Source: Nitrobacter vulgaris
Lineage (GTDB): Bacteria; Pseudomonadota; Alphaproteobacteria; Rhizobiales; Xanthobacteraceae
Assembly (NCBI RefSeq): GCF_002028545.1
Contig: NZ_MWPQ01000049.1
Coordinates: forward strand, 124,001-188,000
Length of the DNA: 64,000 nt
Reading direction: 5' to 3'
Shown: one piece after another, positions 48,774 to 64,000 of the stretch
Position numbering within the stretch: position 1 is the stretch's first letter
Layout: each line of letters starts with the position of its first letter
The notes under the pieces: generated by a model
What the model saw: the letters and a program-made list of their open reading frames with translations, nothing else
Database searches by the model: none
What the model was told of the DNA's origin: nothing
Made by a program: the position numbers and the translations under genes

Positions 48774-49234
48774 CCGACCGCGGCGGGAAGCGGATCACGC
48801 GACCAGACGGCCCACGTCTTCCTGCCGGATCGCAGAACATGATGCAGGCAGTCTTCGGCGTTAGGCAGGAGCGGACGACACTCCACCGGAATAACCACAT
48901 TCGCTGCCGTAGTCCGATCCCGACATCGTCCGATCCTGACATTGCATTTCGTTTAAGCGAGCCTTGCCTTCTTACGAATGTCAGAATCGAAGGACCGCTA
49001 GTAATGCACGTCGCCCGTGGAGTTTGAATCGATATCGCGTCCAAGACGCGCGGCTCGCGGGGCGCGAATGTCAATTTCCCTCCCACCAAAGCGTCCCTTT
49101 TGATGGGATCTGAAGCGATATCCCCGTTTTCGATTTGACGTGTTTCCCCATGCCAACCATATGCACTTCGTAAAACGCTCCAGCAAAGGATTGACGATAA
49201 CGTGATCTCTCAGACAAATCGCCGGAGATGCGCC
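48774..49234. other. 461-base gap before the M16 genes
   Basis: No convincing gene. It includes a degraded repeat B copy on the plus strand (about 49085-49186: TTTGATGGGATCTGAAGCG, TTTCGATTTGACGTGTTT, CACTTCGTAAAACGC) and must contain the promoter for the M16 pair. TTGACG at about 49191 is too close to the start to judge. Confidence 0.45.
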
Positions 49235-61238: not shown

Positions 61239-62243
61239 TCGCCGCGCACGGTTGAGCCTGTCGGTCAGAAACGACCGCAACAACGGTTCATCGTCAAAGG
61301 CAAGCCTGACTGCGAAGGGTACGACGGTCTGCGCGAACGCGGCCAGACTTTCACTATTGCGCAGCCGCGCCAGATCTTTTTCCGTCGTCACCAACGTTAA
61401 ACCATCCTGCTCGCCAGCGGCTTGTAGCTCGGCTACGTCGCGTTGCGAAAACGGATAATGATCCGCGAACGCACGCTCTGTCACCACATCGACGCCGCAG
61501 GCCCGCAGACTGCGGAAGAACCGCGAGGGATCGCCGATTCCAGCAAAGGCTAGGACACGTCTGCCGCGAAGGGCCGCAATCGAAGCGTCATCCGGAACAA
61601 CCCGTGCCCGAAATACAGGTCCTCCCCGCACCTTCACACGTGCTGCAACTTCGTCCGCGGCGGCACCAATGCCGACGATCACCAGCGCATCGGTGCGGGC
61701 CAGTTGGGGCGGCAGCGGCGCCCGCAGCGGTCCGGCCGGAAAAACCTGGCCGTTACCGAGGCCGCGATCGCCATCGATCACGATCAGCGAGATATCCTTC
61801 GCGAGCGCCGGGTTCTGAAAGCCATCGTCCATCAAGATCACGCTGGCCGCCAACGCGCGGGCCGGCGCGACGCCCGCCCTCCGTTGCCGTGACACGATCA
61901 CAGGGATCGTCCGTGCCATCATCAACGGCTCATCGCCGACATCGGCAGCCGCATGTCGGTGCGGATCGACGTGCACCGGGCCGTGCAGCCGTCCGCCATA
62001 GCCGCGGCTGAGCACCACCGGCGTTTCACCGAGCGAGCGGAGAATGCCAGCCAGCGCCATCACGGTCGGCGTCTTGCCCGCGCCGCCGACATGATAGTTT
62101 CCGACACAGATCACCGGCACCCCCGCGCGCAGACCCGTCCGTGTCAGCCGCCCCGCGGCGATCGCGCCGTAAAGCGCGCCAACAGGCATGAGCAACCGCG
62201 AAAGCAATGATGATTGCCTGTGCCAAAAGGCCGGCTCACGCAT
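61236..62243 (-). CDS. lpxK: tetraacyldisaccharide 4'-kinase
   Basis: Phosphorylates the 4' position of the lipid A disaccharide. The 335 residues show FWHRQSSLLSRLLMPVGALYGAI, the P-loop region VGNYHVGGAGKTPTVMALA, VILMDDGFQNP and FAGIGDPSRFF. ATG 62243 overlaps the waaA stop by eight bases; 62261 is unlikely. It is the last gene of the acyltransferase-waaA-lpxK row, and its TAG stop lies in the repeat at 61139. Confidence 0.95.
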   Translation of the reverse strand: MREPAFWHRQSSLLSRLLMPVGALYGAIAAGRLTRTGLRAGVPVICVGNYHVGGAGKTPTVMALAGILRSLGETPVVLSRGYGGRLHGPVHVDPHRHAAADVGDEPLMMARTIPVIVSRQRRAGVAPARALAASVILMDDGFQNPALAKDISLIVIDGDRGLGNGQVFPAGPLRAPLPPQLARTDALVIVGIGAAADEVAARVKVRGGPVFRARVVPDDASIAALRGRRVLAFAGIGDPSRFFRSLRACGVDVVTERAFADHYPFSQRDVAELQAAGEQDGLTLVTTEKDLARLRNSESLAAFAQTVVPFAVRLAFDDEPLLRSFLTDRLNRARR

Positions 62244-63561
62244 CGGCCGCCCGTCGTTCAAATTGCAACTGCAGAAGATATGGCTCGAGCGCGGTCAGCG
62301 TGCGATCCAGCGCCCCGCCGAGCCTTTCCACCACCTGAGTCGCGGCCGCCGCCGCGGCATCGCGGGCCGCGGAATCGTTGAGAAGGTAGCCAAACTGCTT
62401 CGTCAGCGCATCGCCGTCGTCAACCCGCCATGCGCCACCCGCGCGGTCGAGCGCGTAATAAACATCTGGGAAGTTGAAGACGTGCGGCCCATGCACAATG
62501 GATGCATTGAGCTTGACTGCCTCAATCGGATTCTGCCCGCCATGCGGCACCAGCGACCCCCCCATGAAAACGATTGGCGCCAGCCGGTAGAACAATCCCA
62601 GTTCGCCGATGGTATCGGCGATATAGATGTCCGTTCTCGCCGTCGGCAATTGTTCCAGCGAGCGCCGCGTCCCTTGCGCGCCGGACGCCACCACCATCCG
62701 GGCGATGGCCTCGCCCCGATCCGGGTGGCGTGGAACGATCACCGTCAGCAGCGATGGAAAATGATTGGCCAACGTTCGATGCGCGGTGAGCAGCATCTCT
62801 TCCTCGCCCGGATGGGTCGAGGCCGCCACCACCACCGGACGGCCGCGGGTGACGAACAGCAGTCGTTCCAGCTTGGCGTCGTCGGCCGGAGGCGCCTGTA
62901 CGTCGAGCTTGAGATTGCCGGTGATGACGACGTTGCGCGCCCCGAGTGTTGTGAAACGCTCCGCGTCGATTTCGGACTGGACCAAGCAGATATCGAACCG
63001 GCTCAACAGCGCAGCGATTGTTCGGGACGCCCGCCGCCAGCGCGGGAACGAGCGGCGCGACATCCGCCCGTTGATCAGCACAATCGGTATATGGCGCCTA
63101 GCACCAGCCAGAATCAGATTGGGCCACAAGTCTGATTCGATAAAGAGCGCAAGGCCGGGTTGCCAATGATCGAGAAAACGCTCCACGAAGCGGGGCGAGT
63201 CGTAGGGGATATACTGGTGAATGATATCCGGCGGGAACCGCTTCGCGGCGACGGCCGCCGACGTGACCGTGCCCGACGTGACCAAAATGCCCATTCCGAG
63301 CGCGCGCAGCCGCTCAATCAACGCCGCTGCCGCCAGCACTTCGCCAACGCTGGCCCCGTGGATCCAGACCAGCGGGCCTCCGGGGCGGGGCTGTCGGGCG
63401 ATGCCACGACGCTCATTGATGCGCGCCGGGTCTTCCTTGCCCTGTTTCAAACGCCGCTTCAGAAGAATGGGCGTCAGCGGCCCGGCAGCGGCGGACAGTC
63501 TGCGATAGAAGCGCAGCGTCGCCGGCAGGCTGGTACCCGCTTTCCGAAGTTCGTGAGACAT
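62236..63561 (-). CDS. waaA: 3-deoxy-D-manno-octulosonic-acid (Kdo) transferase
   Basis: Adds Kdo to lipid IVA in the inner membrane. The 441 residues have the family start (LRFYRRLSAAAGPLTPILLKRRLKQGKED), the GT30 motifs VWIHGASVGEVLAAAALIERL, IPYDSPRFVERFLDHWQPGLALFIESDLWPNLI and FMGGSLVPHGGQNPIEA. ATG 63561 is preferred to the GTG at 63564. It overlaps lpxK. The acyltransferase gene (63794) lies upstream beyond a repeat. Confidence 0.96.
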   Translation of the reverse strand: MSHELRKAGTSLPATLRFYRRLSAAAGPLTPILLKRRLKQGKEDPARINERRGIARQPRPGGPLVWIHGASVGEVLAAAALIERLRALGMGILVTSGTVTSAAVAAKRFPPDIIHQYIPYDSPRFVERFLDHWQPGLALFIESDLWPNLILAGARRHIPIVLINGRMSRRSFPRWRRASRTIAALLSRFDICLVQSEIDAERFTTLGARNVVITGNLKLDVQAPPADDAKLERLLFVTRGRPVVVAASTHPGEEEMLLTAHRTLANHFPSLLTVIVPRHPDRGEAIARMVVASGAQGTRRSLEQLPTARTDIYIADTIGELGLFYRLAPIVFMGGSLVPHGGQNPIEAVKLNASIVHGPHVFNFPDVYYALDRAGGAWRVDDGDALTKQFGYLLNDSAARDAAAAAATQVVERLGGALDRTLTALEPYLLQLQFERRAADA

Positions 63562-63613
63562 CACAACACCCCCTTAACGAACCTCGGAAAGCAAAGGGTA
63601 CCAGCAACTTTAT

Positions 63614-63700
63614 GATTCTAGTACCGCTTTCGATTTGAAATTCCCGAAGATGACCCCGCTGCAAGGGGTGCAGGAATTTCAAATCGGCGGTACTAGATTC
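63614..63700. mobile_element. short inverted-repeat element flanked by GATTC (MITE-like)
   Basis: The 77-base core (63619-63695) begins TAGTACCGC and ends GCGGTACTA, and is flanked by direct copies of GATTC (63614-63618 and 63696-63700). Arms continue inward as TTTCGATTTGAAATTCC and GGAATTTCAAATCG with a three-base slip, enclosing a CCCC ... GGGG hairpin. It lies next to a family A repeat. Confidence 0.6.
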
Positions 63701-63800
63701 TGATTCAACTGTGTTGAACCAGAATCTAACCCTACCCCTTTGATTGAGCATGATCTCATCCGAAAACCGGATTCCACTTTTCGGGATCATGCTCTAGGCA
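63701..63800 (+). repeat. dispersed intergenic repeat, family A, copy 3
   Basis: TGATTCAACTGTGTTGAACC, AGAATCTA, then TTGATTGAGCATGATC, GAAAACCGGATTCCAC, TTTTCGGGATCATGC and CTCTAGGCATGA. It aligns along its whole length with 2130-2235. Its CTCTAG forms the TAG stop of the acyltransferase gene downstream on the reverse strand. Confidence 0.88.
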
Positions 63801-64000
63801 TGACCCGCCTCGTATTCGGGACCAGCCTCGAGTTCGGGCCGGCCGACTTTCGTGTAAGCGCGTCGCGTCGCATCGTTCAATGTCGCCTCCAGCCGCACCC
63901 TCAGCATCTCCATCATCTGCGCATCGGCGTCGGCAGGAACCGCAATCGGCTCCCCGCCAACCAAGGCGCCGCGTCCGAACGGCAGGTTAATCGTCGTGCG
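63794..64000 (-). CDS. lysophospholipid acyltransferase family (DUF374), 3' part
   Basis: A reverse frame enters from the window edge and stops at TAG 63794-63796; 68 residues are visible. RTTINLPFGRGALVGGEPIAVPAD is the end of the DUF374 domain, an acyltransferase-like family seen beside waaA in Rhizobiales. The visible tail ends in LEAGPEYEAGHA. It is upstream of waaA on the same strand and presumably starts the lipid A-related row. The catalytic motif is outside the window. Confidence 0.8.
   Translation of the reverse strand, partial: RTTINLPFGRGALVGGEPIAVPADADAQMMEMLRVRLEATLNDATRRAYTKVGRPELEAGPEYEAGHA

Follow-up and report, generated by a model that had tools for sequence, protein, structure and literature searches.

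What is the long inverted repeat that lies at the beginning of waaA in Nitrobacter vulgaris, how far does it reach, and what has it done to the gene? In the window (the whole 64,000-nucleotide stretch of DNA analysed here), a sequence-only reading had described a 77-base inverted-repeat unit with identical GATTC flanks.

Structure and borders of the element

We confirmed a long near-perfect hairpin (hairpin 1) at 63618-63696 in minus-strand sense, and the stretch 63612-63702 folds with an energy of -48.4 kcal/mol (z = -9.6), a value equalled by 0 of 200 shuffles. The unit and its borders had been misjudged: in other copies the homology continues for about 85 bp past the left GATTC (window orientation), up to 63530, and because of this extension we define the element as 167 bp long, with a second hairpin (-49.5 kcal/mol, z = -8.9). 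The reported hairpin is thus one half of a 167-bp two-hairpin mobile element. The features are as follows:

63530..63696, minus strand: complete two-hairpin element, 167 bp (covariance model match, positions 1-167, 168 bits, E 3.6e-38; the model was built from 38 rows, this copy among them)
63618..63696, minus strand: hairpin 1 (79 nt), feet CTAG/CTAG (fold z = -9.6)
63605..63617, minus strand: linker AATCATAAAGTTG, 13 nt, conserved in the family (alignment of copies)
63530..63604, minus strand: hairpin 2 (75 nt), feet CTGG/CCAG, 3' arm coding (fold z = -8.9)
63567..63575, minus strand: putative Shine-Dalgarno-like (SD-like) AAGGGGGTG in the hairpin 2 loop (from its sequence)
63559..63561, minus strand: ATG within the element, proposed waaA start (reading frame)
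63695-63727: third palindrome AGATTCTGATTCAAC...GAACCAGAATCT, source of the right-hand GATTC

On the minus strand the order is hairpin 1, 13-nt linker and hairpin 2, with feet of CTAG or close variants. Terminal inverted repeats are present, the outer arms reading CTAGTRCC.../...GGYACTAG and the inner arms alike. No Rfam family scored above its gathering score within 63500-63900. That the element runs into coding sequence is absent from the sequence-only reading.

Distribution and conservation of the family

The element belongs to a dispersed family without a name that occurs in Nitrobacter, Bradyrhizobium, Rhodoplanes, Pseudolabrys and other Hyphomicrobiales. The search for the core in this genome and its relatives, suggested earlier, succeeded in the genus, where hairpin 1 matched six of nine Nitrobacter genomes (that of the window included) and many unlinked places in four of them; in its own genome it matched only here. 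Neither DNA nor pattern searches found a second copy of this subfamily elsewhere in the window genome, which does hold a decayed remnant at lepA and sister subfamilies. A pattern scan of named genomes gave at least 120 matching stretches, and among the matches listed are Bradyrhizobium, Rhodoplanes piscinae, Pseudolabrys, Nitrobacter and many Hyphomicrobiales MAGs. One row from Sutcliffiella (L147), in which no element is visible, was taken as a chance match.

The 38 full-length copies that we aligned, hand-picked from 82 parsed and including the window copy, align end to end. On this alignment the two-hairpin structure pairs 98.1% of cells, and 17 of its 50 pairs have changed on both sides; neither value was reached by any of 500 shuffles or by any slid version, and the number of further pair types was reached by one shuffle in 500, with the reservation that the structure was drawn from the same alignment, a bias in its favour. 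The covariance model found matches in all nine Nitrobacter genomes, 28 to 115 per genome at E <= 0.1 with 150 candidates scored in each, counts that include both-strand duplicates and sister subfamilies. Under stricter filters, with 35 candidates scored per genome, eight of 81 genomes sampled across the order (its own included) match at E <= 1e-10; the sole Bradyrhizobium of that sample (G031) has no match at this threshold. One consensus-like copy had no match in plasmid and phage collections.

Target site and mobility

The interpretation as a non-autonomous mobile element (MITE) in the sequence-only reading is supported: copies are dispersed, their ends are defined, and sister genomes contain empty sites. 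We joined the flanks of 20 copies, searched nine of these joints in the genus and compared the matches for seven. For three copies a single CTAG stands exactly at the joint of the empty sites (1 of 1 for the G008 copy, 4 of 6 for the G001 copy, 1 of 1 for a copy in G000, the genome of the window), where the filled sites hold two, and because of this the element is a CTAG/TA-targeting MITE. In keeping with a MITE it is 167 bp long, has no transposase coding and is dispersed in many copies, and most empty sites have the TA core expected of IS630/Tc1-mariner elements. The other four of the seven comparisons, without a single CTAG at a continuous joint, count against a CTAG target: the empty sites have CTAC in 4 of 4 sequences for G004C37b, GTAG twice, TAG and TTGG for G006_617, TCAG for G004C37, and GTAG twice and CTAG once for G007_2637, whose right side is unaligned. 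For these four copies a TA core, though no clean CTAG joint, is present in 10 of the 12 sequences compared. At waaA itself the empty sites read CTAG in G005 and G006, CTAA in G007 and CTGA in G001. The empty-site data are compatible with a CTAG or TA target, and they point to transposition of the element.

Among 108 full-length copies, CTAG forms the left foot in 63, the right foot in 74 and both in 44; CTAG is lacking at either end of the lepA copy and at the left foot in the ubiA copies, which again counts against this target. Since CTAG contains TAG, a preference for stop codons was tested and was not found: an ORF of 100 or more codons is closed by 31 of 137 CTAG ends and by 108 of 464 CTAG sites taken as background from these loci.

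The GATTC target duplication proposed earlier did not survive these comparisons. GATTC does stand on both sides of hairpin 1 in the window genome, but the left one reaches into the conserved linker (AATCAT in minus-strand sense) and the right one is part of the separate palindrome at 63695-63727, so their resemblance to a target duplication is coincidental. None of the other copies listed has GATTC as its outer flanks, the clean empty sites show a single CTAG, and no copy was seen that ends at hairpin 1 with GATTC flanks and has a single-GATTC empty site. A 77-bp MITE with a GATTC duplication is hardly credible on this evidence, and the idea that a GATTC-bearing repeat was the target falls with it, the target being CTAG (TA core).

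Hairpins with a complementary tetranucleotide foot resemble REP logic, and here the foot has stayed complementary through two-sided change. Spread by a REP/RAYT-like single-strand mechanism, rather than by a cut-and-paste TA/CTAG transposase, is nevertheless improbable in our view, given the duplication of CTAG at the target and the CTAG ends that are found as well on some IS630-type and IS5-type elements resident in the genus. The hairpins, of 79 and 75 nt with CTAG-type feet, also differ from a REP/BIME unit of 20-40 bp with a GTAG or CGTC tag.

The resemblance to the IS630- and IS5/IS427-type insertion sequences of Nitrobacter lies in the CTAG at which some copies end; their terminal sequences do not match the element. 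No autonomous partner was found among the IS630-type, IS5-type and other loci scanned, and no IS with the TAGTACCG ends that had been proposed, or with TAGTGCC ends, was among them. In the genus, 30 of 56 listed IS630-type matches and 30 of 105 listed IS5-type matches were fetched, and none of these loci has element-type ends at the IS border. The IS630 copies compared in G007 end in TAGAGCATGATG, which does not match the ends of the element, and the remaining fetched IS630 loci had no element-matching ends. At L309 and L319 the candidate arms are part of separate elements next to the IS, and that at L304 is a single weak match. In a scan of 245 loci for unpaired arms at a spacing of 0.5-3.5 kb, nine loci yielded 27 pairings, three being the same place, and of ten open frames between such arms six match host families in Pfam and none a transposase.

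Probable replacement of the waaA start

Comparison of the waaA loci reveals both the ancestral and the derived start region:

62236..63564, minus strand: waaA (lipid IVA Kdo transferase) ORF (NCBIfam PRK05749.1-3)
63799..63801, minus strand: ancestral waaA ATG (ATGCCTAG), now cut off (comparison of waaA loci)
63746..63794, minus strand: GAGCATGATC palindromic repeat, distinct from the element and located between it and the ancestral start

The best NCBIfam match of waaA, PRK05749.1-3, has 450.8 bits, under the curated cut-off of 617, and its NCBIfam matches in general lie below the curated cut-offs of their models. In the element-free genomes G001, G005, G006 and G007, as in several other genera whose loci were read, the waaA start either shares bases with the stop of the upstream acyltransferase gene or adjoins it (in G006 the junction reads CATGCCTAGCCCGATGCC). 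The ancestral ATGCCTAG start, which overlapped that stop, was split at its CTAG; the TAG within it is still the stop of the acyltransferase gene, and about the first 11 codons of the waaA ORF are element-derived. The gene now appears to be read from AAGGGGGTG and the ATG of the element, both of which lie in the hairpin 2 loop in the window genome, with a new N-terminus MSHELRKAGT-; this sequence or a close variant is the predicted WaaA N-terminus in the filled genomes. A GTG at 63562-63564 directly precedes the ATG and lies likewise inside the element. In G000 no in-frame ATG, GTG or TTG occurs between the element ATG and the conserved WaaA sequence.

At this locus the nine Nitrobacter genomes hold three full copies (G000, G003, G004), two right-part remnants (G002, G008), both of which retain the ATG and the frame, and four empty sites. 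In G004 the ancestral CTAG is the left foot of the complete element, whose right foot leads into waaA. In G000 the GAGCATGATC repeat and another palindrome separate the ancestral CTAG from the element. The GAGCATGATC repeat, which begins at that CTAG, lies outside the element; the similar ends of the IS630 copies of G007 suggest a possible IS630 MITE, and the Brucella sRNA model RF02600 overlaps the repeat below the gathering score. In G002 (L037) the acyltransferase gene continues through the remnant in a different frame (...ERCDVSRTSESGY) as far as the TAG within the right CTAG, so that one stretch would code both for the C-terminus of the acyltransferase and for the N-terminus of WaaA; in G003 (L038) the acyltransferase frame is closed in similar fashion by a first remnant.

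In the tree G000 is sister to element-free G001, and G008 to element-free G007, and such filled and empty pairs may reflect repeated insertion, loss or exchange. The waaA copies form no clade in the element tree, but most of its forks do not resolve, and it can be read as one insertion or several.

The same replacement at lepA and ubiA

The same replacement is seen at lepA and ubiA, whose matches to TIGR01393 and TIGR01474, respectively, are above cut-off. Two of the nine Nitrobacter genomes have an element start at lepA. In G006 the element follows the third lepA codon, separating it from the remainder of the gene, and the predicted LepA start is MSDELRKRGT; in G000 a decayed copy would provide the start MSDELQKQGT; the other seven genomes have MTTSPIANIRNF or similar. 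In both filled genes no ATG, GTG or TTG occurs between the element start and the conserved LepA sequence.

An element-derived UbiA start, M(E/D)YELRK, is present in 7 of 60 sampled Bradyrhizobium genomes, and in the other 53 the best match to the UbiA query begins at residues 9-13. Of the 60 loci 30 were read: the 7 filled ones and 23 that lack the element. The ATG and frame are kept, free of indels, in 15 of 15 rows (13 distinct ubiA sequences), and no alternative start codon follows the element in the loci read. The filled genomes are scattered on the gene tree, yet their copies share an unusual left foot (CACG in most). The element-free sites do not look like excision products, because ATGAGCGA, found in 16 of the 23 read, is absent from the filled flanks. 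Allele exchange fits the ubiA data best.

Among 51 distinct right arms with ATG, GTG or TTG at the start place, 12 are the waaA, lepA and ubiA cases, and two of the remainder were checked by NCBIfam. L128, with a GTG in the element and an open frame (heme A synthase model, 332 bits against a cut-off of 550), and L179, with an open frame into the element, were set aside as start donations, each having a plausible native start. The 511-codon frame at L078 has no NCBIfam match.

Proposed origin of the new start

We propose that a 167-bp non-autonomous element transposed into the CTAG at the acyltransferase stop and the first codons of waaA, duplicating the CTAG, and that a CTAG/TA-specific transposase would have moved it. 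The insertion would have separated waaA from its ATG, and would have been tolerated because the hairpin 2 loop brings an SD-like sequence and an ATG whose frame exits the open right end of the element and joins that of waaA. Translation of the gene would then begin within the element, MSHELRKAGT would stand in place of the first few residues of the ancestral protein, and selection would leave only start-restoring insertions visible. As a whole, insertion at CTAG plus start donation to waaA is the best explanation, to which we assign a probability of about 80%. Initiation at the element starts is predicted because no ATG, GTG or TTG follows the element in G000 waaA, at lepA and in the ubiA loci read.

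Several observations also suit an ordinary 5'-leader insertion, after which waaA would start just past the element and the open frame of hairpin 2 would be accidental. In four of the five filled waaA loci a codon that could serve as start stands directly after the element (ATG in G008, GTG in G002 and G003, TTG in G004), which counts against start donation, as does the presence of the element ATG in only 33 of 98 full-length subfamily copies, hence not essential to the element. Such a codon is lacking after the element in G000 waaA, in G006 and G000 lepA and in the ubiA loci read, and the remnants in G002 and G008 have retained the ATG end, so we regard a simple leader insertion as unlikely. 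A further point against start donation is the position of the SD-like sequence and ATG: both are in a hairpin loop, and the high stability of that hairpin could impede ribosomes. Very stable, covarying hairpins in a 5' leader would equally be expected of a conserved regulatory RNA or attenuator of waaA that is not a mobile element, but the many unlinked copies in sister genomes and the patchy presence at waaA speak against this, and the one-CTAG empty sites contradict it as a sole account; we judge it very improbable, a secondary regulatory role of the element being possible.

For start donation itself, the cautious reading is that some insertions could be survived thanks to a frame that was open by chance, and that selection left those, in view of the alternative codons in four waaA loci, the minority of copies with an ATG and the 12 of 51 right arms with a start codon that are the waaA, lepA and ubiA cases. 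It is tempting but doubtful to go further and see in the element a portable translation-initiation module, with its SD-like sequence and ATG in the loop and its right-arm frame open outward, maintained for such use. If this were true, insertions at operon stop/start overlaps would be survivable, essential genes would be re-started repeatedly across lineages, and the family could maintain itself where genes are densely packed, since it would render its insertions tolerable.

Comparison with known repeats

In the cited part of the source, Rickettsia palindromic elements (RPE) are palindromic mobile repeats of about 150 bp fused in frame into existing ORFs (PMC10969869). By this description they resemble the present element, in that a palindromic mobile repeat enters coding sequence in frame and adds its own peptide; unlike RPE, the present element supplies a start codon and an SD-like sequence. 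The ERIC/RU repeats of enterobacteria, likewise small and mobile, carry ORFs that have fused with those of the host, some of them N-terminally, mostly in hypothetical or small proteins, and the part of that paper drawn on here, whose text does not contain the words 'start codon', offers no empty-site proof of a replaced start (PMC2759123). Here, by contrast, three core genes have orthologous element-free sites. Br-REP1 and Br-REP2 of Bradyrhizobium, from the same bacterial family, are also dispersed palindromes, placed in 3'-UTRs in the portion cited; their printed consensus differs from the element by eye, and no 167-bp two-hairpin unit appears there (PMC5082802). GTAG/CGTC-tagged REPs, which occur in Bradyrhizobium and Rhodopseudomonas, share the hairpin with a tetranucleotide tag but are units of 20-40 bp, and the words CTAG and Nitrobacter do not occur in the text of that source, cited in part (PMC3733652). 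QMITE1 and QMITE2 of Coxiella are structured MITEs that overlap functional genes as well, though at 3' ends, and their direct repeats are variable (2-3 or 7-11 nt) in the section cited (PMC5896051).

A word search for the arm sequences across 5.39 million papers gave four, all unrelated by title, and searches on MITEs, palindromes, RPE and mobile-element start codons returned, among the top-ranked titles, none on this family or on start donation. In-frame fusion by palindromic repeats (RPE, ERIC/RU) is known; repeated donation of start codons, as predicted here, was not found in the literature searched. The waaA, lepA and ubiA loci provide a comparative case in which core genes received a new start codon and N-terminus from a mobile repeat, and with element-free sites persisting in sister species the origin of new gene starts and N-termini is directly testable. 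A widespread two-hairpin element family without a name is now described in Hyphomicrobiales, and start codons near these repeats may be misannotated.

Related repeats and other neighbourhoods

Sister subfamilies with the same hairpin-linker-hairpin plan and length and other arms (e.g. CTAGTGTGGTGGTTCAGAAGTTCGC) occur at L202, L207-L211, L215-L219 and L223. In the CTAGTGTGGTGGTTCAGAAGTTCGC-type subfamily the frame from the loop ATG closes with TAG at the right foot, so that it could not donate starts in this way. In the window, 48923-49089 on the minus strand is a weak model match (E 0.035) that resembles a decayed sister-subfamily copy. Chimeric or tandem arrays, in which elements share a CTAG and one lies beside or within another, were seen at L106:4425-4753, L098 and L138. 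Full-length relatives occur in MAGs labelled Marinimicrobia and Rhodospirillaceae (L118, L161), through transfer or binning error. Another high-copy repeat of about 45 bp (AGAGCGGGATGAGGAAAAGTGTG...) is found at many places in G006, G007 and G008. In five Bradyrhizobium loci (L063, L100, L121, L129, L151) a gene, presumably flhB, has its ATG immediately next to a copy whose right foot is CTAC; a match to the FliR family PF01311 in the frame that precedes the element at L063 is compatible with that assignment.
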